Below, piece after piece: positions 75 to 53,511 of a DNA stretch of 64,000 bases. The notes beneath the pieces were generated by a model. The model ran no database searches. It worked only from the letters and a program-made list of their open reading frames with translations, and was not told where the DNA came from. A program made the translations under genes and the position numbers. Every line of letters begins with the position of its first letter. Position 1 is the stretch's first letter. The DNA is from Sphingomonas sp. LR60 (lineage in GTDB: Bacteria > Pseudomonadota > Alphaproteobacteria > Sphingomonadales > Sphingomonadaceae), in assembly GCF_036855935.1 (NCBI RefSeq), contig NZ_JASPFK010000001.1, positions 1,676,501 to 1,740,500 of the forward strand, written 5' to 3'.

Positions 75-1624
75 ATGGGCGAACCCTTCTACATCACCAC
101 CGCGATCAGCTATCCTAATGGCCGTCCGCATATCGGCCATGCCTATGAAGCGATCGCCGCCGACGCCATCGCACGGTTCCAGCGGCAGGCCGGGCGCGAC
201 GTCCGCTTTCAGACCGGCACCGACGAGCACGGGCTGAAGATGGTGCAGACCGCGCGCGACAAGGGCGTCGAGGTCCGCGCACTCGCCGATGAAATGTCCG
301 GCTATTTCAGGTCGATGTGCGACGCCTTGAGCATCAGCTATGATCGCTTCATCCGCACGACCGATGCCGATCATCATCTCGCCAGCCAGGCGCTGTGGCG
401 CGCGATGGCGGCCGCAGGCGACCTGTACCTCGACCGTTACGAGGGCTGGTACTCGGTTCGCGACGAAGCCTTCTACGACGAGAAGGAACTGGTCGACGGG
501 CAGGGGGCGAGAAGTTGTCGCCGCAGGGCACGCCGGTGACATGGACCGCGGAAGAGACATGGTTCTTCCGCCTGTCCAAATACCAGCAGCCGCTGCTCGA
601 CTTCTACGCCGCCAACCCCGACTTCATCCGGCCGGACTCCCGCCGAAACGAGATTCTGCGCTTCGTCGAGGGCGGGCTGTCCGACTTGTCGGTGTCGCGT
701 ACCAGCTTCGATTGGGGTGTGCCGGTCCCCGACAGCCCCGGACACGTCATGTACGTCTGGGTCGATGCACTGACCAATTACCTGACCGGCGCGGGTTATC
801 CCGATGGCGACATGCCGCATTGGCCGGCCGATCTGCATCTGATCGGCAAGGATATCGTCCGCTTCCACGCTGTTTACTGGCCGGCGTTCCTGATGTCCGC
901 CGGCGTTGCGTTACCGAAGACTGTCTTCGGCCACGGCTTCCTGCTCCACCGCGGCGAGAAGATGTCGAAGAGCCTCGGCAACGTCGTCGATCCGCTCGAT
1001 CTGGCGAACGCCTTCGGCGTCGACGGTCTACGCTATTTCCTTCTCCGTGAGGTCAGCTTCGGACAGGACGGCAGCTACGCCGCCGATGCGATCGTCACCC
1101 GCGTCAACGCCGAACTGGCGAATGCCTTCGGCAATCTCGCGCAGCGCACCCTGTCATTCATCGCCAAGAACCTTGGCGGTACGTTCCCAGAGGCCGGGCG
1201 CACCGACGTCGCAGACGGGCAGTTGATCGAGGAGGTCGTCGTCGCCTGTGCCGGCTTCAAGGCGGCGTTCGCCGATCTGATGCTCAGCCAGGGCATCGAG
1301 GCTTGGATGCGCGGCGTCTTTGCGTGCAACCAATATATCGACGCACAGGCGCCATGGGCGTTGCGCAAGACCGATCCGGAGCGGATGCACGCCGTGCTCG
1401 GCACGTTGGTCCGCGCGATCCGGATGCTCGCGATTACGATCCTGCCGGTGGTGCCGGCCGGGGCGGGGCGCGTGCTCGATCTGCTCGGCGCCGACGATCG
1501 AACGCACGCGGCGGTCGACGATGACGGCTGGTACGCTCGGCAGGTCGCTGCCGGCTTCGTACTCGCGACGCCGACGCCGGCTTTCCCGCGGCTTGAAATG
1601 CCTGTCGAGGCGGAGCCGGCCTGA
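75..1624 (+). CDS. metG: Methionyl-tRNA synthetase, split by a one-base frameshift
   Basis: Charges tRNA-Met with methionine in the cytoplasm; class I synthetase. The N-terminal half (from ATG 75) carries the HIGH signature at residues 19-22 in [13 protein letters not shown]. The second half, in another frame, carries the WVDALTNY block, KMSKS (around 961-975) and the anticodon-binding helices. The frame is lost at the G5 run 503-507: adding one G joins ELVDGQGG to [12 protein letters not shown], a conserved stretch, and gives 516 codons. This is the short form without a C-terminal tRNA-binding domain and without obvious zinc Cys pairs. Both halves are fully conserved, so I infer a sequencing deletion in the homopolymer rather than a pseudogene. 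The stop overlaps the tatD start by one base. Positions 1-74 upstream hold no recognisable gene. Confidence 0.93.
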
Positions 1625-2403
1625 TGCTCGCGGACAGCCATTGCCACCTCAACTACAAGGGGTTGGTCGAGGAACAGCAGGCGGTGCTCGAACGCGCCCG
1701 CGCGCGCGGCGTAACCGCGATGCTCAACATCGCCACCAGAGAGAGCGAGTGGGATGCGGTGCTGGCCACCGCCGAACGCGAGCCCGATGTCTGGGCGACG
1801 GTGGGCATCCACCCCCACGAGGCGGACGCCCACCCGCACGTCGACACCGCCAAGCTTGTGGCGCGCGGCCAGCACCCCCGCGTTGTCGGCGTCGGTGAGA
1901 GTGGGCTCGACTATCATTACGAGCATTCAGATCGCGCGCGGCAGCAGGCGAGCTTCCGCGCGCACATTGCCGCCGCGCGCGCTCTGCAGGTGCCGATCGT
2001 CGTCCACACCCGCGACGCCGAGGATGACACGCTCGCGATCCTGCGTGAGGGAATGGAGGAAGGAAGCTTCACCGGTGTGATCCACTGCTTCACCGCAAGC
2101 GGTATTTTCGCCGATGCGGCGCTACAACTCGGCCTGTTCATTTCTGTTTCCGGCATCGTGACGTTCCGCAACGCGACCGACTTGCAGCAAACCGCCGCAC
2201 GTTTGCCGCGTGAGCGGCTCCTGATCGAAACGGATGCGCCGTTTCTTGCGCCCGTTCCGAACCGCGGCAAGCCGGGGGAGCCGGCGTTCGTCGCCGACAC
2301 CGCGGCGTTTCTCGCCAACCTACGTGGCGAGGAAGTCGAGGATTTACGGTCGTATACGGCGCACAACTTTCACCATCTCTTCAGCAAGACGCTGTCACGG
2401 TGA
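1624..2403 (+). CDS. tatD: TatD-family metal-dependent hydrolase/DNase
   Basis: 259 residues. TatD proteins are TIM-barrel metal-dependent hydrolases with reported 3'-5' exonuclease/DNase activity. The metal-binding HxH is seen in DSHCHLNY at residues 5-12. Further family landmarks are VGIHPHEA, GESGLDYHYE, VHTRDAEDDT, GVIHCFTAS and LIETDAPFLAP. The start ATG overlaps the metG stop (TGATG), and the stop overlaps the GTG start of the next gene, so metG, tatD and the MBL gene are probably co-transcribed. The order metG-tatD-MBL is common in alphaproteobacteria. Confidence 0.95.
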   Translation: MLADSHCHLNYKGLVEEQQAVLERARARGVTAMLNIATRESEWDAVLATAEREPDVWATVGIHPHEADAHPHVDTAKLVARGQHPRVVGVGESGLDYHYEHSDRARQQASFRAHIAAARALQVPIVVHTRDAEDDTLAILREGMEEGSFTGVIHCFTASGIFADAALQLGLFISVSGIVTFRNATDLQQTAARLPRERLLIETDAPFLAPVPNRGKPGEPAFVADTAAFLANLRGEEVEDLRSYTAHNFHHLFSKTLSR

Positions 2404-3164
2404 AGGTCCGCATTCTCGGCTCGGGCACGTCCTCCGGTGTCCCCCGGATCGGCAACGACTGGGGCGATTGCGATCCAGAAGAACCTCGTAACCGTCGGAA
2501 AAGATCATCAATTCTCGTCGAGCACGACGGTAAGCGTATCCTGGTCGACACCAGCCCGGACATGCGTCAGCAATTGCTCGACGCCGACGTGAACACGTTC
2601 GATGCGGTGATCTGGACGCACGAGCACGCCGATCATGTCTTTGGAATCGATGATCTTCGTCAGGTCTACCATGCGCTCGGACGTCCGGTAGAGGGATACG
2701 CCCGGCCGCGCACTGCCGCAGCGCTTCGCCGCCAATTCGGCTATGTCTTCGAAGGCAATCGCGGATACCCGCCCACGGTAAATCTCAATGACTTGCCGGA
2801 TAAACTTCGCATCGGCGCGATCGATATCAGCATCGTCGACCAACCGCACGGCGGCATCACCTCAGCGGGATTGCGCTTCGAAGCCGGCGGCCATGTCATT
2901 GGCTATGCCACTGATATCAGCGCAATGACCGCCGACATGCAGCAGCATTACCAGCACCTCGACGTCTGGATCGTCGACGCCCTGCGACGCCGCCCACATC
3001 CCACGCATCCCGACCTAGCAACGGTGCTGGGCTGGACCGACGACCTAAAACCACGCCAAACCGCACTAGTCCACATGGATCAGTCGATGGACTACGCCAC
3101 GCTCTGCGCCGAACTACCGCCGGGCGTAGAACCGGGCTTCGATGGCTGGGAGTGGTCGGCGTGA
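2400..3164 (+). CDS. MBL-fold metallo-hydrolase (PhnP/RNase Z-like family)
   Basis: 254 residues from a GTG start that overlaps the tatD stop by four bases (GTGA). The metallo-beta-lactamase fold shows an N-terminal ILGSGTSSGVPRIG strand-loop, the metal-binding THEHADH motif at about residue 77, HGG at about 149, a DAL-type Asp and a late VHMDQ histidine. This resembles the PhnP-like cyclic-phosphodiesterase/RNase Z-like branch. The substrate is not known for the copy that follows tatD in alphaproteobacteria. No signal peptide is visible, so it is presumably cytoplasmic. Confidence 0.88.
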   Translation: MKVRILGSGTSSGVPRIGNDWGDCDPEEPRNRRKRSSILVEHDGKRILVDTSPDMRQQLLDADVNTFDAVIWTHEHADHVFGIDDLRQVYHALGRPVEGYARPRTAAALRRQFGYVFEGNRGYPPTVNLNDLPDKLRIGAIDISIVDQPHGGITSAGLRFEAGGHVIGYATDISAMTADMQQHYQHLDVWIVDALRRRPHPTHPDLATVLGWTDDLKPRQTALVHMDQSMDYATLCAELPPGVEPGFDGWEWSA

Positions 3165-3343
3165 GCGACAGAGCAATGCAGGCCGCAATCCTATTGATCG
3201 TCCTAGTTCTGCCGCTTGCAGCGCTGGTCGCACGGCGTGTGCCGTTAGGAACCACGCTGAAGTACGGCGCTATCTGGCTGGGGATCATAGCCTCCTCGCC
3301 ATACTTCTTCGCAGTTTTACATAATGTAGATTATCGAGATTGA
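3161..3343 (+). CDS. Small membrane protein of unknown function
   Basis: 60 residues from GTG 3161, which overlaps the preceding stop by four bases (GTGA). An upstream in-frame GTG at 3152 is possible but less economical. Two hydrophobic segments are visible: AILLIVLVLPLAALVA near the N-terminus and KYGAIWLGIIASSPYFFAVL near the C-terminus. It is probably an inner-membrane protein translated with the upstream operon. I do not recognise a named family. Confidence 0.6.
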   Translation: MSDRAMQAAILLIVLVLPLAALVARRVPLGTTLKYGAIWLGIIASSPYFFAVLHNVDYRD

Positions 3344-3370
3344 CTGTGAAGCTGGATGGACGGCTACGCG

Positions 3371-4528
3371 TTACCCTGGCGTCGCCTTGGTCGCCTTAGC
3401 CTCCGCCGTCAGCACCAGTTCCGCTGCCAGCAAGGCGCCCGCCTGATCCTGCGCCACAGATGTGCCTTCGACGATATCGTTGATGAATTGCGGGCCGAAT
3501 GGCAGCGGGACTTTTGAGCAGTCGATGTAGCGCGTGCCCTTGCGATCGGCGATGAACAGATGGTTGCCGCCGGGGTGCCCGGCGATGTCAACGTACTTAC
3601 GTAGCTCGATATATCCCTCGGTGCCGAGGATGAAGAGTCGGCCGTCACCCCAGGTCGGCAAACCGTCCGGGGTGAACCAATCGACCCGAATATACCCGGC
3701 TCCACCGCTGCCGTGGAGCATCATATCACCGAAATCCTCGAACTTCGGATGCTCCGGGTGCGCGAAATTGCCGGTTTGCGACGCGAGCACCTGCGCGCGC
3801 GTACTGCCCGTCAGATAGACGAACTGATCGGCCTGGTGGCTGCCGACATCGGTAAGGATGCCACCGTTGCGCGCCGGATCCCAGAACCACGCCGGACGGT
3901 TCGACGCGGACAGGCGATGCGGCGCGAGGTTGATGGTCTGGATCACGCGCCCGATCGCGCCGTCGTGCACCATCTGCCCAGCCATTACCGCGGCGGGCAC
4001 CTCCAGCCGTTCGGAATACATGATCCCGTACTTGCGCCCGGTCTCCTTGATCGCACGGCGCACGTCGGCGAGCTGCGCGAGCGTGGTCACCGCCGCCTTG
4101 TCGCTGAGATAGTCCTTGCCCGCGCGCATCACGCGGATGCCGAGCGGTGCACGCAAACTGGGGATCGCGGCGCTGCACACCAACTTGATCGCACGATCCT
4201 GAAGGATCTCGTCCTCGCTCCGCGCCAGCTTCGCGCCGGGATAGCGTTGGCGGAACGCCGCGATCTGCTGCGGATCGGTCGCATAGAAGCTGGTGAGCAC
4301 CCCGCCCCCGCGGATCATCGCATCGGTGATCCCGTAGATGTGGTTGTGATCCATCCGGATCACGGCGAACGGCACGCGGTACTTGGCCTCCGATGCAGGT
4401 TTGGCGACGGCGGTTTCGGTCGGCGCGTCGCCGCGGGTCGCGGATTGCGCCAGCGCATCGCCGGCCAACCCCATCAACCCTGCGCTCAACCCCAACCCCA
4501 GCACCGAACGGCGATCGGAATGCGTCAT
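3371..4528 (-). CDS. Exported Gfo/Idh/MocA-family oxidoreductase with degenerate Rossmann motif
   Basis: 385 residues from ATG 4528, chosen because GAGGGGG lies about eight bases upstream; a TTG 18 bases earlier is less likely. The N-terminus has a twin-arginine-type signal (SDRRSVLGLGLSAGLMGL, then ALAQ). The Gfo/Idh/MocA C-terminal domain is clear (NGGILTDVGSHQADQFVYL). The cofactor-binding loop is unusual: the expected GxGxxG is replaced by a stretch containing DHNHIYG, and the EKP motif reads DKA with the lysine retained. It probably acts in the periplasm on a sugar or its keto derivative and is the last gene of a five-gene minus-strand operon. The next gene upstream ends 15 bases inside this one's leader. 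Confidence 0.82.
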   Translation of the reverse strand: MTHSDRRSVLGLGLSAGLMGLAGDALAQSATRGDAPTETAVAKPASEAKYRVPFAVIRMDHNHIYGITDAMIRGGGVLTSFYATDPQQIAAFRQRYPGAKLARSEDEILQDRAIKLVCSAAIPSLRAPLGIRVMRAGKDYLSDKAAVTTLAQLADVRRAIKETGRKYGIMYSERLEVPAAVMAGQMVHDGAIGRVIQTINLAPHRLSASNRPAWFWDPARNGGILTDVGSHQADQFVYLTGSTRAQVLASQTGNFAHPEHPKFEDFGDMMLHGSGGAGYIRVDWFTPDGLPTWGDGRLFILGTEGYIELRKYVDIAGHPGGNHLFIADRKGTRYIDCSKVPLPFGPQFINDIVEGTSVAQDQAGALLAAELVLTAEAKATKATPG

Positions 4529-4542
4529 CGTCTTCGTCCCCC

Positions 4543-5802
4543 TCAAACCGTAACCAGCGACGTCGGCCAGGTCATCGCCTCCCCGCGGTCCATCGCCTGT
4601 TCGCCGAGCAGCGAGGCCACGCTGGCGTAATAGGCCTGCTGCAACAAACCCGGCAGCGGTTTGCCCGAACGGACCGCCTCGCCGAAGCCTTCGAACTGCA
4701 GCATCGTCTCGTCGTACTCGCCCCAGCCGAGCGACTCACCCGGAGTCGTCACCGGCAGTTCCGGAAACCACGTCGCGCCGCCGATCGGGATCGTGCGCTT
4801 GTGCCCCCGCTTCACGTCGGCCTGCATCCGCTGCAACGCCAGCGCACGCGCCGGCACCTCCTGATAGATGCGGCCGAGTTCGGGCTCGATCGTTCCCTTG
4901 CTGCCCTGGATCTGCTCCTCGCATCCGTAACGGGCGTTGTTGAGCAGCGAGGTGTAGATCACCTTCCTGCCGCCCGCATATTCGTAGATCAGCGCGACAT
5001 GGTCGTAGACCTCACGCCCGTCCTTCCAGAAGCAGATGCTGCCCGAGCCGATCACCCGGGTCGGCACGCCATCGAGAAACCAGTTGCCGACCTGAAGCTG
5101 GTGGGTCGCCAGCTCGGTCATCAACCCTGCCGAGCTTTCGCGGTACAACCGCCAGTTGATCCGGCGATCATCGCTGTCGGCAGGGACCGGGCGACGCCAC
5201 GCATTGTTGCGATGCCAGCTCGCACGGATCTGCGTGATCGAGCCGATCTCCCCGGCCTTCACGCGGCGCAACGCGTTGAGATAGGTCGGATGGAACATGC
5301 GCTGATGCCCGATCTGGAGGATCTTGCCCCGCGCACGCGCGCGCTCGACCATGCGTCCACAATCCGCGATCGTTCGCGCCATCGCCTTCTCGCACCAGAC
5401 GTGGAGCCCGGCGTCCATCGCGTCGAACGTATGCTGTGCGTGGCGATGGAGCGGCGTCGCGATCACCACCGCGTCCAGTCCGCGTGCGTCGAGCATCGCG
5501 CGATGATCGCTGAACTCGGGCGTGCCCGCCGCCCATTTACGCGCCTTGCCGAGGTTCGGTGCATAGGTGTCGCACATCGCGGCGACCACGCAGTTGCGCG
5601 TCTTTGCGATATTCTGGATCAGCGCGCGTCCGCGATCGCCGGTTCCGATCACGCCGAGCCGCACCTTGCCCGACCCGGCGGTTTCCGCACCGGCGGCGAT
5701 CGCCGCCCATGGCGTCGCGGTCGCCATCACGCTGCCGGCAGTGGCCATCAACACACGATCGAGGAACGTGCGACGCGTCACATCGAATATCTTGTCGGTC
5801 AT
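4543..5802 (-). CDS. Tat-exported Gfo/Idh/MocA-family oxidoreductase
   Basis: 419 residues. Twin-arginine signal TRRTFLDRVLMATAG at residues 9-23, then a mature domain with a canonical nucleotide loop (GVIGTGDRGRAL), a CDTY strand end, VVIATPLHRHAQH and an EKA version of the catalytic EKP motif. The C-terminal half has NWRLYRESSAGLMTELATHQ, typical of NAD(P)-dependent sugar dehydrogenases of this superfamily. The start overlaps the ApbE-like stop by one base (TGATG). Family knowledge: exported members such as glucose-fructose oxidoreductase of Zymomonas, also a sphingomonad, keep a tightly bound nucleotide. Periplasmic sugar oxidation or isomerisation is inferred. Confidence 0.88.
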   Translation of the reverse strand: MTDKIFDVTRRTFLDRVLMATAGSVMATATPWAAIAAGAETAGSGKVRLGVIGTGDRGRALIQNIAKTRNCVVAAMCDTYAPNLGKARKWAAGTPEFSDHRAMLDARGLDAVVIATPLHRHAQHTFDAMDAGLHVWCEKAMARTIADCGRMVERARARGKILQIGHQRMFHPTYLNALRRVKAGEIGSITQIRASWHRNNAWRRPVPADSDDRRINWRLYRESSAGLMTELATHQLQVGNWFLDGVPTRVIGSGSICFWKDGREVYDHVALIYEYAGGRKVIYTSLLNNARYGCEEQIQGSKGTIEPELGRIYQEVPARALALQRMQADVKRGHKRTIPIGGATWFPELPVTTPGESLGWGEYDETMLQFEGFGEAVRSGKPLPGLLQQAYYASVASLLGEQAMDRGEAMTWPTSLVTV

Positions 5803-6701
5803 CAAACGAACATCCTGGTCGGTGCGGCAGCAGTCTCGAGTTCGAAGAGCATCCGCCTGGTCCCATCATGCAGCCGTCGTGCCGCGGCGTCATCCGCCAC
5901 GATCAGCGCGGTACTCAACATCTCTGCCATCGCGCCGCTGCGGTCGACGACGATCGCCGTGCGTGGCGCAACGATCGCGGCGGCGTCACCCGGCCGCAGC
6001 ATCGCCGCGCGCTCGGGCGCATCGATCCCGCCGCCGATCGTCGCCGAGATCGACAGCGCCTCATCGATCAGCGCGACCTCGACCAGCATCTGCTCGGCGT
6101 CGCGAGGATCGGGAATGGCGAACGACCACGCGCCGCCCAGCGGGTGCTCGCCAATCACCGCGATCGAGCTTTCCCCCGCCGACAGCAACGCGCAATCGAC
6201 CTGCGTCTCGCGTAACGCCACCACCGCACGATCGAGCGCATACCCCTTACCGAATCCACCGAAGTCCATCGCGATCGGCGCGGCGCAGGCGATCGTCATC
6301 GCGCGTCGATCCAGCCGTACGTCCTTCCAGCCGACCGAGCCATGTCGCGCATCGACACTGGGATCGAACAGACCGGCCGTCACACTGCGCGCATCATCGA
6401 TACGGACCAACGCGTCGAGCAGGATCGGGTCGTCGATCGCTGCGCATCGTCCGCTGCGCAGCGCCTCGTTCAGCGCCGTCGCCGGCGATGGCCGATGAAT
6501 CGTCAGCGCGTCATCGACAAGCTCGATCGCGCGCTGCGCCATGGCCAGCGCCTCGGGCGCACCGCCACCGAAGCGGTGCAGCTCGATACGCGTTCCCATC
6601 GCGGCGAAGCACAGTTCGCCGGTCGCGGTCAGTGCGCGGGTCGAGACGGCCGGCTGGGTCAGGCCCTCACCTCCCAGCCCGGCTGATAGTCGACCGCCCA
6701 C
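5802..6701 (-). CDS. apbE: ApbE-family FAD:protein FMN transferase
   Basis: 299 residues from GTG 6701, overlapping the upstream gene by 43 bases. A later ATG at 6599 would remove the conserved segment before AMGT, so the early start is preferred. ApbE enzymes use FAD to attach FMN covalently to a Ser/Thr of an acceptor protein. Visible motifs are FAAMGTRIEL near residue 32, DFGGFGKGYALDR (Mg/FAD binding) and LLSAGESSIAV. I see no signal peptide or lipobox, unusual for a family often exported. None of the neighbours shows a DxxSGAT-type acceptor site, so its target is unknown. Its position between exported oxidoreductases suggests a role in electron transfer for the pathway. Confidence 0.82.
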   Translation of the reverse strand: MGGRLSAGLGGEGLTQPAVSTRALTATGELCFAAMGTRIELHRFGGGAPEALAMAQRAIELVDDALTIHRPSPATALNEALRSGRCAAIDDPILLDALVRIDDARSVTAGLFDPSVDARHGSVGWKDVRLDRRAMTIACAAPIAMDFGGFGKGYALDRAVVALRETQVDCALLSAGESSIAVIGEHPLGGAWSFAIPDPRDAEQMLVEVALIDEALSISATIGGGIDAPERAAMLRPGDAAAIVAPRTAIVVDRSGAMAEMLSTALIVADDAAARRLHDGTRRMLFELETAAAPTRMFV

Positions 6702-7972
6702 AATTTCATCGCCTCGGCGCTGGCGGGCTTGCCCGTCGCCGGGTCGATCGTCAGCACGCTGTTGGTGCGATAGGCGATGTTGCCGAGGTGGCAGAGCGTG
6801 GTGCTGATATGCCCCTCGGCGATCGGCGAAGCGAGCGCGCTTGCCTTGCCGCGGATCACGTCCACGAAGTTGCGCGCGTGATAGACGTCGAGCACGCCTT
6901 CCCCGACCGTCCCGGTCGTCTCCGACGTTGCAGCCGCCTTGACCTGCCGGGTCTGCTTGCCCGCCAAATCATATAGCTCGAAGCCGTTGCGATCGACGAT
7001 CGCCGATCCCTTGGTGCCGAGCAACAGCACCCCGCGACCGCGACCGTAGGTCTGCTGCCCGTTGCAGCTTTCGCCCTTCCAGCGGATCACGCGATTGTCG
7101 TCATAGGTGAGATCGAGCGCGAGCGAGTCGTACATTTCCCAGTCGTCGCCCGCGTGGAAGCGCTTCGCGCCACGGGCCGCCACCGTGTTCGGATAGGTCA
7201 GCCCCATCAGCCAGCGCGCGACGTCCAGTTCGTGCATCGCGTTGTTGCAGATTTCGCCGGTGCCGTACTTCCAGAACCAGTGCCAGTTATAATGGACGAG
7301 GTTCGAGCGATACTCACCGCGTGGACGTGGCCCCTGCCACAAATCCCAATTGAGATTGGCCGGAGGCGCGACAACATTGCCCTTGCCGATCGAGCCGCGA
7401 TTGTTGGCGTACCAGGTCTGCGCCTCATAGATGTCGCCCAACTCCCCGGCGCGGATCAACGCCCCCAGCTGCTGCGTCTCGGGGCTCGAGCGCTGCTGGT
7501 TGCCGACCTGCAGCACGCGCCCGGTGCGCTTCTGGGTCGCGATCAGCGCCTCGCCCTCGGCGGGCGCGATCCCGATCGGCTTTTCCATGTAACAATGCCG
7601 CCCGGAATCCATCGCGTCGATCGCGAGCTTGGCGTGCCAATGGTCCGGGGTGGCGACGGTGATGACATCGACCGCTTTGCGATCGAGCAACCGGCGGTAA
7701 TCGCCCTCGGTCTTGATCGCGCTGTTGCCCTTGGCGGCGAAGGCGGCGGCACGCTTGGCGAGCACGTCCGAGTCCACGTCGACAAGGTGGGTGATCGCGA
7801 CATTCGGCTGCTTGCTGAACGCGCTGAGATGCGCCTGTCCGCGGCCGTTGACCCCGACCACCGCGACGCGCAGCCGGTCGTTCGCGCCCTTGATCTGGGC
7901 ATAGCTTCGCGCGCTGATCGCGACTCCCAGTGCCGCGCCGGCCCCGGTCAACATCGTGCGACGATCGATCAT
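6659..7972 (-). CDS. Tat-exported Gfo/Idh/MocA-family oxidoreductase
   Basis: 437 residues from ATG 7972 (the frame is open further upstream). GAGGGGA lies about seven bases before the ATG. Twin-arginine signal DRRTMLTGAGAALGVAIS at residues 3-20, then AVVGVNGRGQAH as the nucleotide loop, TVATPDHWHAK and a canonical EKP in HCYMEKPIGIAP near residue 125. The C-terminal half has NWDLWQGP, HWFWKYGTGEICNNAMHELD and WKGESCNG, typical of the large periplasmic sugar dehydrogenase-like branch common in Bacteroidetes and sphingomonads. The start lies at the end of the DUF1080 gene, indicating translational coupling. Confidence 0.9.
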   Translation of the reverse strand: MIDRRTMLTGAGAALGVAISARSYAQIKGANDRLRVAVVGVNGRGQAHLSAFSKQPNVAITHLVDVDSDVLAKRAAAFAAKGNSAIKTEGDYRRLLDRKAVDVITVATPDHWHAKLAIDAMDSGRHCYMEKPIGIAPAEGEALIATQKRTGRVLQVGNQQRSSPETQQLGALIRAGELGDIYEAQTWYANNRGSIGKGNVVAPPANLNWDLWQGPRPRGEYRSNLVHYNWHWFWKYGTGEICNNAMHELDVARWLMGLTYPNTVAARGAKRFHAGDDWEMYDSLALDLTYDDNRVIRWKGESCNGQQTYGRGRGVLLLGTKGSAIVDRNGFELYDLAGKQTRQVKAAATSETTGTVGEGVLDVYHARNFVDVIRGKASALASPIAEGHISTTLCHLGNIAYRTNSVLTIDPATGKPASAEAMKLWAVDYQPGWEVRA

Positions 7973-9392: not shown

Positions 9393-9511
9393 CGAGTATC
9401 CTGCCCTAATGCCGCGGCCGCGCCGATGGCGTGGACCGTCCTGTTTTTCGGATGCTTCCGCACCTCTTCACCTCACGAGCCTAAGTCGCGGCCCGACCAC
9501 TTGCAATAGAG

Positions 9512-17202: not shown

Positions 17203-17339
17203 GCTTTGTCCTCCCCTCGCGCCTCATGCGGGCGCTCCCCGCTACCTTCCTGTGTTTAAGGCGAAGGTCAATGCAGGTTTGAAGCATCGAACCATCTTGC
17301 CGTATGTTATTGCTCATCAACCGCTACGAGGCACCGTTC

Positions 17340-18847
17340 GTGCAGCATTCGACCTCACCTGCCATCGCCGACGTCGACCTCCTGATCGTTGGCGGCGGGA
17401 TCAACGGGGCCGGCATCGCCCGCGATGCCGCCGGCCGGGGGCTGTCGGTGATGCTGGTCGAGCAGGACGATCTCGCCAGCCATACGTCGTCAGCCTCCAC
17501 CAAGCTGATCCATGGCGGGCTGCGCTATCTCGAATATCGCGAGTTCCGCCTGGTGCGTGAGGCGCTGATCGAGCGTGAACGGCTGTGGCGAATGGCGCCG
17601 CACATCATCTGGCCGCTCGAGTTCGTGCTGCCGCAGAGCAACTCGCCGCGGCCGGCGTGGCTCGTGCGGCTCGGCCTATTCCTCTACGATCACCTCGGCG
17701 GCCGCGAACGCCTGCCGGCGACGCGCACCGTCGCGCTCGATCGCGACGCGGTCGGCAACGGGCTGAAGCCGGGTAATCCCAAGGCATTCGTCTATTCGGA
17801 CTGCTGGGTGGAGGATAGCCGGCTCGTCGTCCTCAACGCGCGCGACGCCGCCGATCGCGGCGCGACCATCCTGACGCGCACCCGACTGGTCGACGCGCGC
17901 CGCGATGGCCAAGGCTGGACGGCCACGATCGCCGATGCCGCGGGACCGCGCGATGTGCGGGCGCGCGCGATCGTCAACGCCGCGGGACCGTGGGTGGCGG
18001 ACGTGCTCGGCAAGGTTCCCGACGCACGTCGGGACCGTGGCGTGCGGCTGGTGAAGGGCAGTCACATCGTCGTGCCACGGCTCTACGATGGCGCGCACGC
18101 CTTCCTGCTCCAGAACCCCGACCGTCGCGTGGTGTTCGCGATCCCGTACGAGCAGCATTACACGCTGGTCGGCACCACCGACGAAGCGTGGCAGGGGCAA
18201 CCCGGCCGCGCCACCATCGATCAGCAGGAAACGGATTATCTGCTCGGCACGATCGCACGCTATTTCGAGCGGCCTGTGGCGCAGGACGAGATCGTCTGGA
18301 GCTATTCCGGCATCCGCCCGCTGTACGACGATCACGCCACCAACGCCTCGGCCGTGACCCGCGACTATGTGCTCGATCTGGATAAAGGTGCAGGCGGCGC
18401 ACCGATGCTGAGCATCTTCGGTGGCAAGATCACCACCTACCGCAAGCTCGCCGAGCACGCGCTGCAGGAACTCGCCGGCTTCTTTCCTCGGCGGGGCCGG
18501 CATGGACCGCGGGCGCCGCGCTGCCGGGCGGTGACATGCCGGGTGCAGATTTCGAACACTACCTCGCGACACTGCAACGACGCTATCTTGCGCTTCCCGC
18601 CGAACTGCTCCGACGGCTGGCGCGCGCTTACGGCACCAAGGCGGAGCACCTGCTGGGCGATGCGCAAACCGTCGCGGACCTCGGCGAGAATATGGGCGGC
18701 GGCCTGTTCAGCCGCGAAGTCGATTATCTACGAACAGCGGAATGGGCCACCTGTGCCGAGGACATCCTCTACCGCCGCAGCAAGCTTGGCCTGCACGTCC
18801 CGCCGGGCACCGCCGAGCGCGTCGACGCCCAGCTAGGCCGCAGTTAG
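17340..18847 (+). CDS. glpD: Aerobic glycerol-3-phosphate dehydrogenase, frameshifted near the C-terminus
   Basis: Membrane-associated flavoprotein that oxidises glycerol-3-phosphate to dihydroxyacetone phosphate and passes electrons to quinone. GTG 17340 is preferred because GAGG lies eight bases upstream; ATG 17304 is possible. The FAD-binding DLLIVGGGINGAGIARDAA is intact. The frame breaks in the G4 run 18493-18496: with one base added, FFP continues into GPAWTAGAALPGGDMPGADFEHYL and on to the normal end CAEDILYRRSKLGLH. The repaired length is about 502 residues. As elsewhere in this window I infer a sequencing deletion. The 3' end overlaps the convergent PilZ gene by four bases. Confidence 0.92.
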
Positions 18848-27419: not shown

Positions 27420-27977
27420 TCACTTGTTGAGAATTTCCTTCTCTTTCGCCGCCGATACGGCGTCGATCTCGGTGATCGTCGCGTCGGTCAGCTTCTGCAC
27501 TTCGGTTTCCAACCGCTTGCGATCGTCTTCCGAAATGACGTTCTTCTTCTCGTCGGTTTTCAGCGCATCCATGCCGTCGCGACGCACGTTGCGCACCGCG
27601 ATCTTGGCCTTCTCCGAATATTGCCCCGCGAGCTTCGCCAATTCCTTGCGGCGCTCCTCGGTCAGATCGGGGATCGGCAGGCGCAACGTCTGGCCGTCGT
27701 TGATCGGGTTGAGGCCGAGCCCCGCGGAGCGGATCGCCTTTTCCACCGGGCCGACGTTGGTCTTGTCCCAGACCTGCACCGACAGCATCCGCGGCTCGGG
27801 CACCGACACGGTCGCCACCTGGTTGAGCGGCATGTGCGCGCCGTAGACCTCGACGGTCACCGGATCGAGCAGCGACGTCGAGGCGCGGCCGGTCCGCAAC
27901 CCGCTAAGATCGCCCCTCAACGCTTCGATCGCGCCGTTCATGCGACGCTCGAGATCGGCCTTGTCATACGCGGACAT
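27420..27977 (-). CDS. frr: Ribosome recycling factor
   Basis: 185 residues from ATG 27977 ([20 protein letters not shown]). The frame extends upstream into pyrH but is not coding there. Splits post-termination ribosomes together with EF-G and IF3. The family pattern is clear: [56 protein letters not shown] and a C-terminal helical bundle. The start overlaps the pyrH end by 14 bases, indicating coupling. Confidence 0.97.
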
Positions 27978-28706
27978 CGATAGTCTCCATCTTCTTCTGC
28001 ACGACCGTCGACACGCCCTTGCCATCCAGCACGGCGGCGAAATTGCCGTGCTCACGGATGTTGAACACGACGATCGGAATATCCGAATCACGGCACAGCG
28101 CCACGGCGCTGGCATCCATCACCTTCAGATTCTTTGCCAGCACCATGTCGTAGCTGACCGTATCATAACGCTTCGCATCGGCGACCTTCTTCGGGTCGGC
28201 ATCATAGACGCCGTCGACCGAGGTGCCCTTGAACAAGGCGTCGCAATTCATCTCGGCCGCGCGCAACGCCGCGCCGCTGTCGGTGGTGAAGAACGGCGAC
28301 CCCACGCCCGCCGCGAAGATCACGACGCGGCCTTTCTCCAGATGTCGCTCGGCCCGGCGGCGGATGAACGGCTCGCACACCGAATGCATCGGGATCGCGG
28401 ACTGGACGCGCGTATCGACGCCGATCGTCTCCAGCGCGTTCTGCACCGCCAGCGCGTTCATGACCGTCGCCAGCATTCCCATATAGTCGGCGGTCGCACG
28501 CTCCATGCCGTTCGCCGCGCCGGAAATGCCGCGGAAGATGTTGCCGCCGCCCACGACGACGCACAGCTCGTAACCCTGCGCCCGCACGTCGGCGATCTCC
28601 TCAGCGACGCGCGCCGTCACCGCCGTATCGATCGCGAGCCCCCCTGCCCCATCAGGACCTCGCCCGACAGCTTCAGCAGGATGCGTTTGTAGCGGGGCTC
28701 GGTCAC
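27964..28706 (-). CDS. pyrH: UMP kinase, split by a one-base frameshift near the N-terminus
   Basis: Phosphorylates UMP to UDP; amino-acid-kinase fold. GTG 28706 starts [20 protein letters not shown] in one frame. The rest ([30 protein letters not shown] to the end) is in another. The break is in the C6 run 28639-28644 (G6 on the coding strand): one more G gives [15 protein letters not shown] and a 247-residue enzyme of normal length. PyrH is essential, so I infer a homopolymer sequencing deletion. It precedes frr, as in most bacteria. Confidence 0.93.
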
Positions 28707-28819
28707 ATGAATTCCGTTGTAATGGGAGGGCGAAGCGGCGCGGACCCTAAGCGGCGGGTGCGCGACTGGCAATGGGTTGACACGATCCGGACGCTCGCCG
28801 CGCGTGGCACACATGCGAA

Positions 28820-39965: not shown

Positions 39966-42734
<2,769 letters not shown>

Positions 42735-42738
<4 letters not shown>

Positions 42739-44899: not shown

Positions 44900-44911
44900 C
44901 CTCTCCCGTCA

Positions 44912-44978: not shown

Positions 44979-44995
44979 GGACCGATCGACGCGAC

Positions 44996-45466
44996 CTACA
45001 CCGGGATCGCCGTCGTATATTTCGTCATCGACAGCGCGAAGTGCGACGATGCCCCGGCCACCGACGGGTGCCCGAGCATCACCTGCATGAGGAAATGATT
45101 ATAGTCGCTGACATCCGCCACGACGATCCGCAGCAGATAGTCCCATTCCCCCGACATCGAGAAGCTCTCGACGATCTCCGGCCGCCCATCGACGAACTGC
45201 TCGAACGCCTGCCGCGCCTCGATCGCATGGCTCCGCATCCGCACGTTGCACAGCACATTAACCCCGCGCCCCACCGCTGCGGGATCGACCAACCGCACGG
45301 TTCGCGTCAGGATCCCCGCCGCTTCCAACGCCTTGACCCGCCGCCAGCACGATGCCGACGACGCCCCGACGCTTTGCGCCAGATCGGCGTTGCTCAGCGT
45401 GCCGTCCGCCTGCAAGGCCGAAACGATGCGGCGGTCAATGGCGTCAAGTTGATCGGCCTGGTTCAT
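44996..45466 (-). CDS. Lrp/AsnC-family regulator, probable controller of phhA-hppD-hmgA
   Basis: 156 residues. Helix-turn-helix in LDAIDRRIVSALQADGTLSN and ADLAQSVGASSASCWRRVKA. The RAM domain follows (VRMRSHAIEARQAFEQFV, VESFSMSGEWDYLLRIVVAD). It is transcribed away from the phenylalanine hydroxylase gene across 96 bases. Lrp-type proteins beside phhA/hppD often activate them in response to phenylalanine or tyrosine, which I infer here from position only. Confidence 0.93.
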   Translation of the reverse strand: MNQADQLDAIDRRIVSALQADGTLSNADLAQSVGASSASCWRRVKALEAAGILTRTVRLVDPAAVGRGVNVLCNVRMRSHAIEARQAFEQFVDGRPEIVESFSMSGEWDYLLRIVVADVSDYNHFLMQVMLGHPSVAGASSHFALSMTKYTTAIPV

Positions 45467-45532
45467 GGCGAGGGGCTATAACGCTGCAAGCGTTTCATCG
45501 AAAGCTCCAGATAGTGCATTTCTGATAAGCAT

Positions 45533-45554
45533 TGATCGCGCCCCTGTGCGATCA
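45533..45554. promoter_or_regulatory. Candidate operator in the Lrp/phhA divergent region
   Basis: TGATCGC and GCGATCA form a perfect 7-base inverted repeat with an 8-base spacer, 8 bases before the phhA start codon. In a 96-base divergent region this is a plausible Lrp-family binding site or leader hairpin, though it would sit unusually close to the start codon. Confidence 0.35.
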
Positions 45555-45562
45555 TCGCGAAC

Positions 45563-46414
45563 ATGGCAGATGCAGCGATTACCCGACCCAAAGGAGCAGC
45601 AGCCGATTGGACGATCCCACAGGGCTGGGACGCGTACACGGCCGAGGAACACGCCACCTGGGATACGCTGTTCGCGCGCCAGATCGAGATGCTCCCCGGC
45701 CGGGTAACGCCGGAGTTCATGGCCGGCCTCGACGTCCTTCGCCTCTCCCGGCCGGGCATCCCCGACTTCGAAGAACTTTCCGAACGGCTGATGAAAGCGA
45801 CCGGCTGGCAGGTCGTCGCGGTGCCCGGCCTCGTTCCCGACGACGTCTTTTTCGATCACCTCGCCAACCGACGTTTCGTCTCGGGCAACTTCATCCGCCG
45901 CCCCGATCAGCTCGACTATCTTCAGGAGCCCGACGTCTTCCACGACGTCTTCGGACACGTCCCCCTGCTCGCGAATCCGGTCTTCGCCGATTACATGCAG
46001 GCATACGGACAGGGCGGGCAGCGCGCCGCGGCGATGGGCGCGATCGATCGCCTGTCGCGGCTCTACTGGTACACCGTCGAATTTGGGCTGGTCCGCTCGG
46101 GTGAGGGCCTGGCACTCTACGGCGCCGGCATCGTTTCCTCGCGATCCGAATCGATCTTCGCGCTCGACGACGCCTCCCCCAACAGGATCGGCTTCGACCT
46201 CAAGCGCGTCATGCGCACGCGCTATCGGATCGACGACTTTCAGCAGAGCTACTTCGTCATCGACAGTTTCGAGGACCTGCTCGACCAGACGCTCAACACC
46301 GATTTCGCCCCGCTTTACGCCGAGCTGGAAGGCCAGCCGGATCACGACCCGGAGACGATCCTGCCCGACGACCGCGTCTACACGCGCGGCACGCAAGCGC
46401 ACGCGCGCGGCTAA
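45563..46414 (+). CDS. phhA: Phenylalanine 4-hydroxylase
   Basis: 283 residues. Pterin- and iron-dependent monooxygenase making tyrosine from phenylalanine. The two iron histidines are in EPDVFHDVFGHVPLL at about residues 134-138 and the glutamate in WYTVEFGL about 40 residues later. It is the single-domain bacterial form without a regulatory ACT domain. It starts a unidirectional run with hppD (24 bases) and hmgA (114 bases). No pterin-carbinolamine dehydratase gene (phhB) is in the window. Confidence 0.96.
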   Translation: MADAAITRPKGAAADWTIPQGWDAYTAEEHATWDTLFARQIEMLPGRVTPEFMAGLDVLRLSRPGIPDFEELSERLMKATGWQVVAVPGLVPDDVFFDHLANRRFVSGNFIRRPDQLDYLQEPDVFHDVFGHVPLLANPVFADYMQAYGQGGQRAAAMGAIDRLSRLYWYTVEFGLVRSGEGLALYGAGIVSSRSESIFALDDASPNRIGFDLKRVMRTRYRIDDFQQSYFVIDSFEDLLDQTLNTDFAPLYAELEGQPDHDPETILPDDRVYTRGTQAHARG

Positions 46415-46438
46415 CCTCTTCACCTGAAAGGCCCGACC

Positions 46439-47497
46439 ATGACCGATCCCGCCAACCCGCTCGGCCTCGCCGGCTTCGAGTTCTGCGAATTCACCTCGCC
46501 CGATCCCGACACGCTTGCCGGCCAGTTCGAACAGATGGGCTTCGTCGCCGCGCATCGGCATCCGACCAAGCAGGTGACGCGCTACGTGCAGGGTCGCATC
46601 AACCTGCTGCTCAACCGCGAGCCGACCGGTCAGGCCGCGGATTTCCGCGCGCTTCACGGCCCGTCGGCGAGTGGGATGGCGTTCCGCGTCGCCGATCCGA
46701 AGTCGGCGTACGACCATGCGCTCGCCGAGGGCGCGACCGCGGTCGACGCGGCAGCGGGGACGCTCGGCGATGGCAGTTTCCCGATCGAGGGGATCGGCGG
46801 CAGCTACCTCTATCTCGTGAAGGCGGGCGAGGACCTGTACGCCGATTGGGAGGAAGTCCCCGGCTGGCGCGAGGCCGCCGAGCAGAATAATGTCGGGCTC
46901 GATATCCTCGACCACCTCACCCACAACGTCCGTCGCGGCGAGATGCGGACGTGGTCGAGTTTCTACGGCCGCCTGTTCGGGTTCGAGGAGCAGAAGTTCT
47001 TCGACATCAAGGGCAAGGCAACCGGGCTGTTCAGCCAGGCGATGATCGCCCCCGATCTCGCGATCCGCATTCCGCTCAACGAGAGCAAGGACGAGACGTC
47101 GCAGATCGAGGAATTCATCCGTGAGTACAACGGCGAGGGCATCCAGCATCTCGCACTGACGACCGACGATATCTACGAAACGGTCGAGAAGCTGCGCGCG
47201 CGCGGCGTGCGGTTGCAGGATACGATCGAGACCTATTACGAACTGGTCGACAAGCGAGTCCCCGACCACGGCGAGGACCTCGCTCGATTGAAGCGCAACC
47301 GCATCCTGATCGACGGCAATGTCGGCGACGAGGGCATCCTGCTTCAGATCTTCACCGAGAATATGGTCGGCCCGATCTTCTTCGAGATCATTCAGCGCAA
47401 GGGCAATCAGGGCTTCGGCAACGGTAATTTCCAGGCGTTGTTCGAGAGCATTGAGCTGGACCAGATCCGGCGCGGCGTGGTGAAGGTGGACGCGTAG
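46439..47497 (+). CDS. hppD: 4-hydroxyphenylpyruvate dioxygenase
   Basis: 352 residues, two vicinal-oxygen-chelate domains. Converts 4-hydroxyphenylpyruvate to homogentisate. Metal ligands are the histidine in DHLTHNVRRGEM, the histidine in IQHLALTTDDIYET and the glutamate in ILLQIFTENMVGPIF. The C-terminal QGFGNGNFQALFESIELDQ is the usual substrate-closing helix. It works between a tyrosine aminotransferase (not in the window) and hmgA, the next gene. Confidence 0.96.
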   Translation: MTDPANPLGLAGFEFCEFTSPDPDTLAGQFEQMGFVAAHRHPTKQVTRYVQGRINLLLNREPTGQAADFRALHGPSASGMAFRVADPKSAYDHALAEGATAVDAAAGTLGDGSFPIEGIGGSYLYLVKAGEDLYADWEEVPGWREAAEQNNVGLDILDHLTHNVRRGEMRTWSSFYGRLFGFEEQKFFDIKGKATGLFSQAMIAPDLAIRIPLNESKDETSQIEEFIREYNGEGIQHLALTTDDIYETVEKLRARGVRLQDTIETYYELVDKRVPDHGEDLARLKRNRILIDGNVGDEGILLQIFTENMVGPIFFEIIQRKGNQGFGNGNFQALFESIELDQIRRGVVKVDA

Positions 47498-47611
47498 CGT
47501 CCACCAAACGCGCGCACGACGGTGCGCGCCCGCGCCCAGCCGGCACGGGAAGCCGGGCCTTCGGGCACGGCTTTGCCGGGTCCGATGGCCCGGCGTTGAC
47601 AGGAGAGAGCC

Positions 47612-48907
47612 ATGCCCGACACGTCCCGCTACCATCCCGGCTTCGGTAACCACGTGTCGACCGAGGCTGTGCCCGGTGCGCTCCCGATCGGTCGCAACTC
47701 CCCGCAGCGCGTTCCATTCGGCCTCTACACCGAGCAGCTCTCCGGCACGGCCTTCACTGCCCCGCGGCACGAGAATCGTCGTAGCTGGCTCTACCGCCTC
47801 CGCCCGACCGCGCAGCACCCGGCCTTCACCCGCTACGACGGCGCGCCGCATCTGCGCGCCGCCCCTTTCGACACCCCTCCGTCTCCCAACCGGATGCGCT
47901 GGGATCCGCTACCCTGGCCCGCCACGCCGACCGACTGGCTCGATGGCCTCATCACTTATGGCGGTAACGGCAGCGTCGCCGAGCAGACCGGCGTCGCGAT
48001 GCACCTTTATGCCGCGACTGCCGACATGGACCGCGCCTTCTTCTCCGCCGATGGCGAGTGGTTGATCGTACCGCAGGACGGTCGTCTCGCGATCGACACT
48101 GAACTTGGCCGGATCGACGTCGCCCCGCTGCAGATCGTCGTCATCCCACGCGGCGTCCGCTTCCGCATTGCGCTCCCGGACGGCCGCGCGCGCGGCTATG
48201 TCCTTGAGAACCACGGCGCGCCGTTCCGCTTGCCCGACCTCGGCCCGATTGGCGCCAACGGTCTCGCCAATCCCCGCGATTTCGAGACACCCGTCGCTTG
48301 GTTTGAGGATCGCGACGAACCCTGCATCGTCATCCAGAAATTCCAGGGCGCGCTCTGGCAGACCACGCTCGACCATTCGCCGTTCGACGTGGTGGCATGG
48401 CACGGCAACCTCGCCCCGTATCGATATGATCTGACACGCTTCAATACCATCAACACCGTCTCGTTCGACCACCCCGATCCGTCGATCTTCACCGTCCTCA
48501 CCTCACCGAGCGACACCCCCGGCACCGCCAATTGCGACTTCGTGATCTTCCCCCCGCGCTGGATGGTCGCAGAGGGCACGTTCCGCCCGCCGTGGTTCCA
48601 TCGCAACGTCATGAGCGAGTTCATGGGGCTGATCGCCGGCGCCTACGACGCCAAGGAAGGTGGTGGCTTCGTCCCCGGCGGCGCGAGCCTCCACAACCAG
48701 ATGAACGGCCATGGCCCCGATCAGGCTAGCTACGAGAAAGCGGTCGCAAGCGACTTGAAACCCGTCAAAATCGACGGGACGATGGCCTTCATGTTCGAGA
48801 CGCGCCATGTCGTGCGCACCACCGAATGGACGCAAGCCTCGCCGACGATGCAGCTCGATTACGATGACGTCTGGCGCGGCTTTCCCAAGGCGACACTGCC
48901 ACGGTGA
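47612..48907 (+). CDS. hmgA: Homogentisate 1,2-dioxygenase
   Basis: 431 residues. Opens the homogentisate ring to give maleylacetoacetate. Iron ligands are in [14 protein letters not shown] (His and Glu) and in the later [16 protein letters not shown] block. The N-terminal [19 protein letters not shown] and [20 protein letters not shown] are typical. Translation starts after GACAGGAGAGAGCC. The next pathway enzymes, maleylacetoacetate isomerase and fumarylacetoacetase, are not encoded here. Confidence 0.97.
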
Positions 48908-48952
48908 CCCACCGGGCTGGAAAATGCCGTCGACCCTGCTAGCGTGCGCCTC

Positions 48953-49270
48953 ATGCAGTTTCTCAAGATCCTGTTCTGGTCGCTGCTGGCGTTCGTCGCC
49001 GCGGTATTCACGTTCGGCAATTGGACCAATGTCACCGTCCAGCTGTTCGGCGGGCTGGTTGCGGAGGTGAACCTGCCGCTGCTGCTGCTCGTCACTTTCC
49101 TGCTCGGCTTCGTGCCGACGCTGATCTACCAGCATTGGGTACGCTTCCGCCTGCGCCAGCGCCTGACCGCGGCGGAACGCGCGACCGAAAGTGCCCTCGC
49201 CGCGGTCCGCGGCATCGAGACGCCGCCCGTCGTCACACCGCCTGCGCCCCCTGCGAACGGAGCCGAGTAA
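48953..49270 (+). CDS. lapA: LapA-domain (DUF1049) inner-membrane protein
   Basis: 105 residues from ATG 48953; a GTG nine bases earlier is possible. Two membrane segments ([19 protein letters not shown] and [19 protein letters not shown]) are followed by a basic amphipathic helix and a Pro-rich tail. LapA in enterobacteria is part of a complex that controls LPS synthesis through LapB; in a sphingomonad without conventional LPS its role is unclear. The stop overlaps the pyrF start by one base (TAATG). Confidence 0.82.
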
Positions 49271-49944
49271 TGGCCAGCCGCATCTTCGTCGCGCTCGACA
49301 CTCCCGATCTCGATCGCGCCCGCACCCTGGCGCAGAAGGTTCGCCACCATGTCGGCGGGATCAAGCTCGGTCTGGAGTTCTTCTGCGCGCACGGCCCCGC
49401 AGGCATCCGCGCGATGGAAGAGATCGGGCTCCCCGTCTTCCTCGACCTGAAGCTCCACGACATTCCCAATACCGTCGCCAAGGCGGTGCAATCGCTTGCC
49501 GGGCTCGCCCCCGCCGTCCTCACGGTGCACGCAAGCGGCGGCCGCGCGATGCTGGAGGACGCCAAGGCCGCCGCGCATCCCTCGACCAAGGTGGTCGCGG
49601 TGACGATGCTCACCAGCCTCGACGAGGACGACCTCGCCGCGACCGGGATCGCAGGCAGCGCGCACGATCATGTCCTGCGTCTCGCCGATCTGGCGCGCGA
49701 GGCCGGGCTCGACGGCATCGTCTGCTCGGGTGCCGAGGTGAAGGCCGCACATGCCGCATGGCCGAAAGGCTATTTCGTCGTCCCCGGCGTCCGCCCCGCC
49801 GACGGCGACATCGGCGACCAGAAGCGCGTCGTCACCCCGCGGATGGCGGTCGACCATGGCGCATCGATGCTGGTGATCGGCCGCCCGATCACGCAGGCCG
49901 AGGACCCGGACGCCGCCGCCCGCGCGATCGCCGCGACGCTTTAA
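49270..49944 (+). CDS. pyrF: Orotidine 5'-phosphate decarboxylase
   Basis: 224 residues. Last step of UMP synthesis. The catalytic Asp-Lys-Asp array is in [17 protein letters not shown] at about residues 57-73. [14 protein letters not shown] opens the barrel, and [21 protein letters not shown] with [11 protein letters not shown] forms the phosphate site. It lies 43 bases upstream of trpF, as in many alphaproteobacteria. Confidence 0.97.
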
Positions 49945-49986
49945 CGCGTTGTTGGCAGCGTGCGGGCAAGCGCCTAAAGCCGCGCG

Positions 49987-50621
49987 ATGCCCGTCACCGT
50001 CAAGATCTGCGGCCTGTCCACGCCCGAGACGCTCGACGCCGCGCTGAAGGGTGGCGCAAGCCATGTCGGCTTCGTCGTCTTCCCGCCCTCGCCGCGCCAC
50101 CTGCCGCTCGACCGCCTTGCCGGACTCGCCGCGCAAGTCCCGGCGCACGTCCGCAAGGTCGGCGTGTTCGTCGATCCCGACGACGAGCTGCTCGCCGCGA
50201 CGGTAGCGGCCGGGCGGCTCGATGCGATCCAGCTCCACAAGACCGCGCCCGACCGCGTCGCCGCGCTCCGCCGCCTGTCGGGGTGCGAGACATGGGCGGC
50301 GATCGCGGTGAAGACCCGCGCCGACCTCACCGCCGCGCCCGCCTTCACCGGCGCTGCCGACCGCCTGCTCTACGATGCCAAGACCCCGGACGGTGCGACG
50401 CTCCCCGGCGGCATGGGCCTCCGCTTCGACTGGCAGCTGCTCGACGGTTTCCGCCACCCGCTCCCCTGGGCGCTATCGGGCGGGCTCGACCCCGCCAACG
50501 TCGCCGAGGCGATCGCGCGGACCCGCGCGCCGCTGGTCGACGTTTCGTCGGGTGTCGAGTCCGCGCCCGGCGTCAAGGACGTGGACAAGATCGCCGCCTT
50601 CCTGCAACGGGTTTCCGCATC

Positions 50622-50625
<4 letters not shown>
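49987..50625 (+). CDS. trpF: Phosphoribosylanthranilate isomerase
   Basis: 212 residues. Third step of the tryptophan branch. The catalytic cysteine is in [16 protein letters not shown] at residue 7. The barrel continues with [31 protein letters not shown] and the phosphate-binding [16 protein letters not shown] with [15 protein letters not shown]. The stop overlaps the trpB start by four bases (ATGA). trpE, trpG, trpD and trpC are not in the window. Confidence 0.97.
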
Positions 50626-51848
<1,223 letters not shown>

Positions 51849-51852
<4 letters not shown>

Positions 51853-52649
51853 CCCGCCTTGCCGATGCCTTCATCGCCGACCGACCCGCGCTGATCTGCT
51901 TCGTCACCGCCGGCGATCCATCGGTCGCCGCAACGCCGGCGATCCTCGACGCGCTGGTCGAAGGCGGCGCGGACGTGATCGAACTGGGCATGCCGTTCAC
52001 CGATCCGATGGCGGACGGCCCCGCGATCCAGGCCGCCAACATCCGCGCGCTCGCCGGCGGGGTAACCACCGCCGACATCCTGCGGATCGCGAAGGAATTC
52101 CGCGATCGTCATCCACTTACGCCATTGGTGCTGATGGGGTACGCCAACCCGATGCTGCGCCGTGGGGCCGAGTGGTTCGCCACCGCGCTGCATGACGCTG
52201 GCGTCGATGGCGTGATCTGCGTCGATATCCCGCCCGAGGAAGACGATGCGCTCGGGCCGTCGTTGCGGGCGATGGGGATCGATCTCATCCGCCTCGCCAC
52301 GCCGACCACCCGCGACACGCGGATCGGCGAGGTGCTCGATGGCGCGAGCGGCTTCATTTATTACGTCTCGGTCGCTGGCATCACCGGCAAGCAACAGGCG
52401 CAACAGGCATCGATCGAGGAAGCGGTCGCACGGCTGAAGCACGCCACCGACCTGCCGATCGCGGTCGGTTTCGGGGTTCGCACACCCGAGCAGGCCCGCG
52501 CGATCGGCCGCGTCGCGGACGGCGTCGTCGTCGGCTCGGCGATCGTCGAGATCGTCGCCGAACATGGTGCCGCTGCACCCGCGCCCGTTGCCGCCTATAT
52601 CAAGACGCTGTCGGCCGCGCTCGCCGACGCACGAAAGGTTTCCGCATGA
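51849..52649 (+). CDS. trpA: Tryptophan synthase alpha subunit
   Basis: 266 residues from TTG 51849, which overlaps the corrected trpB stop by four bases (TTGA). Cleaves indole-3-glycerol phosphate and channels indole to TrpB. The catalytic glutamate and aspartate are in [20 protein letters not shown] at about residues 50-62. [14 protein letters not shown] and the phosphate-binding [14 protein letters not shown] and [11 protein letters not shown] are present. The stop overlaps the accD start by four bases. Confidence 0.95.
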
Positions 52650-53511
52650 GCTGGCTCAGCAACGTCCGCAACGCGTTGTCCGGAATCGTCCCGGGCGGTG
52701 CGAAGGCGCAGACCTCGATCACCTCTGGCACAAGTGCAAGGGCTGCGGGACGATGGTCTTCACCAAGGAGCTGGAGGAAAACCTCCACGTCTGCCCGACC
52801 TGCGACCATCACGAGCGGATCGGCCCGAGCGAGCGGTTCGAGCATCTGCTCGACCCGGCCAGCATCGACGTGCTCCCCGCCCCGCGCTCGCCGGAAGACC
52901 CGCTCAAGTTCCGCGATTCGAAGCGTTACGCCGATCGCCTCAAGGCCGCACGCGCCGGCACCGGCGAGCAGGACGCGTTCGTCAATGCACGCGGCACGAT
53001 CGACGGTCACCGAGTCGTGATCGGCGTGCAGGACTTCGCCTTCATGGGCGGCTCGATGGGCCAGGCGGTCGGTGAGGCGTTCATCCAGGGCGTCGAGACA
53101 GCGGTCAAGGATCGCGCGCCCTTTATCGTCTTCACCGCTTCCGGTGGCGCGCGCATGCAGGAGGGCATCCTCAGCCTGATGCAGATGCCGCGCAGCACTG
53201 TCGCGATCCAGATGCTCCACGATGCCGGACTGCCCTATATCGTCGTCCTCACTGATCCGACCTCGGGCGGCGTGATGGCGGCGTATGCGATGCTCGGTGA
53301 CGTCCATATCGCCGAGCCTAAGGCGACGCTCGCCTTCACCGGCCGCCGCGTGATCGAAAGCACGATCCGCGAGAAGCTGCCCGACGATTTCCAGACCAGC
53401 GAATATTATCTGGAGCACGGCATGATCGACATGGTCGTCCACCGTCGTGACCTGCGCGCCAAACTGGCGACCGTGATCGGCTATCTCTGCGGCGAACGTA
53501 AGGCCGCCTAA
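52646..53511 (+). CDS. accD: Acetyl-CoA carboxylase carboxyltransferase beta subunit, frameshifted near the N-terminus
   Basis: Forms the AccA/AccD carboxyltransferase that makes malonyl-CoA. The start ATG 52646 gives [20 protein letters not shown]. The rest, from [15 protein letters not shown], is in another frame, so one base is missing at CTCGATC 52714-52720. The four-cysteine zinc finger (CKGC and CPTC) and the crotonase-like [25 protein letters not shown] and GRRVIESTI blocks are intact. Repaired length 288 residues. Followed by folC, as in many bacteria. Confidence 0.94.

Follow-up and report, generated by a model that had tools for sequence, protein, structure and literature searches.

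Six conserved genes of Sphingomonas sp. LR60, metG, glpD, pyrH, gyrA, trpB and accD, each lie in two reading frames that the addition or removal of one base would join. Are they broken in the living cell, are they decoded by some form of frameshifting, or is the deposited sequence wrong? All six fall within one stretch of 64,000 nucleotides (the window, G000:C1:1676501-1740500), which is part of an assembly of 3.94 Mb in two contigs with a completeness of 98.57%. Among named relatives, Sphingomonas phyllosphaerae FA2 (98%) and S. endophytica (97%) stand nearest to it by trpB. Synteny with an earlier set of relatives matched only 4 to 10 window genes per relative, and S. phyllosphaerae FA2 (G021) and Sphingomonas sp. 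8AM (G025) were therefore chosen as references. We searched for broken genes by tblastn with the unbroken proteins of these relatives, placing each break by the best two-frame split, and named the pieces by Pfam and NCBIfam matches. The pieces are as follows (+, forward strand; -, reverse strand).

75..539, +, upstream part of metG (Pfam/NCBIfam methionyl-tRNA synthetase; tblastn gives 97% to relatives over their residues 1-144)
503..1624, +, downstream part of metG, in the other frame; a G run near 504 holds the break, a net -1 (Pfam/NCBIfam, tblastn)
17304..18836, +, glpD open frame, true until about 18487 and false after; break net -1 (NCBIfam glycerol-3-phosphate dehydrogenase matches only its residues 22-399)
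18476..18841, +, glpD downstream piece, in the other frame (tblastn, 67-70% identity)
28638..28772, -, upstream part of pyrH; a G run near 28641 holds the break, a net -1 (tblastn, 87% to the G021 protein over its residues 1-45)
27967..28650, -, pyrH downstream piece (tblastn, 99% identity; NCBIfam UMP kinase)
39966..41465, +, gyrA upstream piece, in the true frame until 41399 (Pfam DNA_topoisoIV, tblastn)
41401..42738, +, gyrA downstream piece, the C-terminal beta-propeller; break 41399-41401, net +1, on the word GATCTCG (tblastn, Pfam)
50622..51770, +, trpB in its true frame (tblastn, NCBIfam)
51766..51849, +, final 28 residues of trpB, in the other frame; break 51766-51770, net +1, on GATCTCG (tblastn)
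50622..52649, +, false trpB-trpA fusion, an open frame of 675 residues that arises from the +1 in trpB
52646..52714, +, upstream part of accD, with a net -1 break close to 52716 (tblastn against G025)
52690..53511, +, accD downstream piece, inside the open frame 52564-53511 (tblastn, 95%; NCBIfam accD)

A first-pass annotation had placed a one-base frame change in each of these genes, and all six were found near the places it gave, five of them against G021 and that of accD only against G025. It had proposed a comparison with related Sphingomonas, and the close relatives indeed have unbroken copies of all six genes. Its description of the pieces as perfectly conserved halves was right as to two halves in different frames, which in each gene jointly span nearly all of the relative's protein, but was overstated as to conservation, as piece identities range from 67 to 100% and the second piece of glpD is at the lower end. 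The 675-residue frame scores above the curated cut-off for TIGR00263 (trpB) and above that for TIGR00262 (trpA), and is a false fusion that a gene caller would accept.

In most bacteria metG, gyrA, pyrH and accD are essential genes, and trpB and glpD are needed only conditionally. Profile and protein searches of the LR60 assembly found no second copy of gyrA, metG, pyrH or accD. PF00521 matched gyrA and one parC-like gene, and the protein searches for metG, pyrH and accD matched nothing beyond the gene in question and its distant paralogues. The gene before metG (about -1094 to -121 from the window) is also frame-broken, by a -1 change beside GGGG near position -464.

Frame breaks are in excess well beyond these six genes. 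Across the 400 kb around the window (sample A), the comparison with G021 gave 27 frame-broken genes among 240 orthologues, and that with G025 gave 15 among 147. The same scan between the two relatives, run in both directions as a control, gave 4/157 (G021 against G025) and 2/157 (the reverse), and the difference between 27/240 and 4/157 has a Fisher p of 1.1e-3. The comparison with G021 yielded 30 events, of which 22 were clean shifts (13 of -1, 8 of +1 and one of -2) and the other eight were larger differences or alignment noise. In sample B, one of two further 400-kb samples of the genome (B and C), a forecast of at least 8% broken genes was narrowly missed (4/51 by tblastn, in stretches that overlap poorly); sample C and the frame model described next joined the analysis after this forecast.

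As a reference-free test, we used a codon-usage frame model to count open-ended, same-strand frame switches per 400 kb. The three LR60 samples gave 27, 16 and 42, and relatives gave 3, 8 and 3. G021 and B021, from which the codon table was derived, are themselves controls; G025, which lay outside the training, gave 3. The sign of minus-strand switches was calibrated on known events, and the penalties were altered once, the first settings having routed every switch via the non-coding state and so returned zero switches. Within the window the model placed seven open-ended switches. Three are the breaks in metG, glpD and gyrA, and those in pyrH, trpB and accD were missed. The other four (at 4573, 5836, 7990 and 20090) coincide with none of the tblastn breaks, and overlapping genes may account for them.

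Two other approaches were set aside. A three-way list of one-base gaps from nucleotide alignments was too noisy, with 68 in LR60 against 48 and 60 in relatives, many of them intergenic. The reverse tblastn scan, with LR60 open frames as queries against G021, gave frame changes in 15/234 (sample A) and 6/56 (sample B), counts that are expected where the queries themselves contain false frames and that are not informative.

Overall, LR60 carries a genome-wide surplus of single-base frame breaks over its close relatives, as an uncorrected long-read assembly would. Scaled to 3.94 Mb, with the relatives' rate subtracted, it amounts by rough inference to a total on the order of 230 breaks.

What distinguishes these breaks? 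The errors are of two kinds, losses by G/C runs and gains on the word GATCTCG, a division that the first-pass annotation overlooked. For ten of the 13 clean -1 events against G021, the printed stretch contains a G/C run four or more letters long (for glpD the run is only in the flank). In samples B and C the frame model placed 43 -1 switches, of which 28 have such a run, compared to about 20% of random 44-mers; for sample B alone, where losses by G/C runs had been forecast, 11/13 model switches and both clean tblastn events lie by G/C runs. Longer runs are depleted in the assembly itself, as had also been forecast for sample B, with 27, 29 and 20 G/C runs of at least six per 400 kb in LR60 compared to 67, 67 and 60 in relatives. 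GATCTCG was found at none of the 13 clean tblastn losses against G021, at none of the 13 -1 switches of the model in sample B, and near 1/43 in samples B and C together. The one-base losses, mostly beside G/C runs, are consistent with homopolymer shortening, as expected of a long-read assembly left uncorrected. The breaks in glpD and accD match neither class of error clearly.

The one-base gains behave differently from the losses in this respect. Seven of the eight clean +1 events against G021 fall on GATCTCG or its complement. The word was first noticed in sample A, and samples B and C (800 kb) served as test DNA unused for discovery. There, GATCTCG lies no more than 22 nucleotides from 11 of the model's 15 +1 switches; among random 44-mers, 2-3% contain it. 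By sample, all three +1 switches in B are on the word, and 4/12 in C, like 5/11 in A, are without it. Most gains in sample B had been forecast to lie on GATCTCG; tblastn gave no clean +1 event there, and its single event, with piece identities of 55/48%, was off the word.

A scan of all 7-mers for +1 jumps ranked GATCTCG first in samples B and C (9/236 sites, nominal p 9.6e-10, to be taken as a guide only since overlapping 7-mers are not independent). In sample A alone it came second, behind a 7-mer that overlaps it. Over all three LR60 samples such jumps occurred at 13/348 GATCTCG sites, compared to 0/423 in relatives, and at none of the similar words GATCGCG (0/1030), GACCTCG (0/272) and GATGTCG (0/281) in LR60. 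Thus, the first-pass view that no site is common to all six breaks holds for the six taken together, but gyrA and trpB do share a site, and it is the word with which one-base gains are associated throughout the sampled parts of the genome.

Where LR60 has GATCTCG in the assembly, relatives often read GATTCG, which is a GANTC site. At GATTCG sites of G021 that could be aligned, LR60 has one extra base in 7/79, compared to 0/249 for other GATTC/GACTC contexts, under a counting rule that was fixed after examples had been seen. Against G025 the extra base was found at 4/46 GATTCG, 1/55 GACTCG and 0/106 others. Between G021 and G025 no extra base was seen at GATTCG in either direction (0/55 and 0/48). 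GATTCG is not consistently depleted in LR60, with 85, 73 and 116 per 400 kb compared to 101, 138 and 104 in relatives.

The errors are thus enriched on a word that a methylase targets, as would be expected of methylation-linked basecalling error, and a candidate methylase is encoded. CcrM methylates GANTC, according to the part of the source available to us (PMC12456177). LR60 encodes a close CcrM homologue of 377 residues (L193:1159-2292, minus strand) that matches 6pbd_A, Modification methylase CcrMI (E 7e-158). It matches Pfam N6_N4_Mtase and RAMA above cut-off, but with 615 bits it stays below the 830 that NCBIfam's curated threshold requires for the Caulobacter equivalog. Our methylase search, which covered family PF01555, found two further members (L194:1417-3024 and L195:1327-2790), one fused to a domain resembling Mrr endonuclease and one with a weak ParB-like N-terminus.

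We propose that two processes act side by side. G/C homopolymers would be shortened in the consensus, giving the one-base losses. At GATTCG, a GANTC site, the adenines would be methylated by CcrM, the modified strand would shift the nanopore signal, and the basecaller would add one surplus letter at a minority of these sites, turning GATTCG into GATCTCG. Because CcrM methylates GANTC, a homologue is encoded and the extra bases lie at GATTCG, the one-base gains are, judging from sequence, most likely miscalls at methylated GATTCG. Methylation-linked miscalls and homopolymer shortening together fit best.

The gains could have another source within the same framework of assembly error, namely a basecaller weakness at plain GATTCG or the action of another methylase. 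This is suggested by the restriction of the gain to the GATTCG subset, when it might have extended across all GANTC contexts, and, for another methylase, by the two further PF01555 members. The restriction to a single context lowers the methylation reading without excluding it, as basecaller failures can depend on context. The word also lies within the target of an encoded methylase, and GANTC-linked assembly errors from nanopore data have been published for agrobacteria (PMC12710330, as far as the available text goes). We therefore regard such a different source as unlikely, with a real but minor chance of being correct, and retain miscalling at methylated GATTCG for the gains.

Could the genes be genuinely broken, by pseudogenisation or in a mutator lineage? 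The changes are present in the deposited sequence. However, gyrA, pyrH, accD and metG, for which no second copy was found, are among the broken genes, the pieces retain high identity to relatives, and the gains are concentrated on a single word, a pattern not predicted by general decay. With about 11% of orthologous genes broken, including genes without a second copy, real breakage in a free-living cell is not credible, and we consider this explanation extremely improbable. A third explanation, that the six genes undergo programmed ribosomal frameshifting or slippage during transcription, has in its favour the 7-mer shared by the breaks of gyrA and trpB. We give it a negligible chance of being right, and the first-pass annotation had likewise judged programmed frameshifting unlikely. 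In relatives each of these genes lies in a single frame (gyrA is without an internal stop in five named relatives), so that no frame change is conserved in these orthologues; GATCTCG breaks unrelated genes too; and in pattern scans of 396 genomes of the order, the gyrA break stretch occurred in its intact form in 12 and with the extra base in one, LR60 itself.

Assembly error is favoured because breaks are several times commoner than in relatives, lie in genes without a second copy and are accompanied by shortened G/C runs, and on these same grounds the first-pass reading of an unpolished long-read assembly is supported. We conclude that the six breaks are almost certainly consensus errors in a long-read assembly uncorrected by accurate reads, and that the living cell has the unbroken genes.

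The LR60 breaks represent a published type of artefact and carry a specific signature. In the portions of the papers available, the agrobacterial case (PMC12710330) is alike in that an alphaproteobacterium shows GANTC errors alongside small indels and errors in homopolymers. It differs in that its motifs are tied to SNP errors, in contrast to the one-base gain of LR60, which is limited to the GATTCG subset. Two possible GANTC-linked cases are described for Brucella in the accessible part of PMC12392509. The Modpolish paper (PMC10687267), in the sections seen, likewise reports modification-mediated errors centred on short methylase motifs that vary between strains, although its motifs are GCAGC and GCTGG and its method sets alignment gaps aside. 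The one-base losses by G/C runs are like the homopolymer indels described for long reads in the accessible text of PMC9262707, from which we saw no difference. The partial texts on modification-linked nanopore errors that we found make no mention of a one-base gain at GATTCG, and we make no claim that it is unpublished.

The underlying biology is then ordinary, and the consequences are practical. The LR60 genome represents its species in the reference set, so false pseudogenes and fusions, such as the 675-residue 'TrpB-TrpA', would enter comparative work. We suggest flagging this genome: a break of +1 on GATCTCG, or of -1 by a G/C run, should not lead to a pseudogene call. More tentatively, and with a little more doubt than confidence, the deposited consensus may be an accidental record of methylation, the gains in assemblies of GANTC-methylating bacteria marking CcrM sites of the GATTCG type. 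If so, assemblies alone could reveal GANTC-methylating species and their false broken genes.

Two minor observations concern other genomes. In a two-contig genome of the order, a parC-like gene is split by a +1 change that is not on GATCTCG (G017:C1:2068197-2069406, L257). An entry titled Microvirga sp. SRT01 (L069) has a trpB that is 85% identical to that of LR60, and its label may be wrong.
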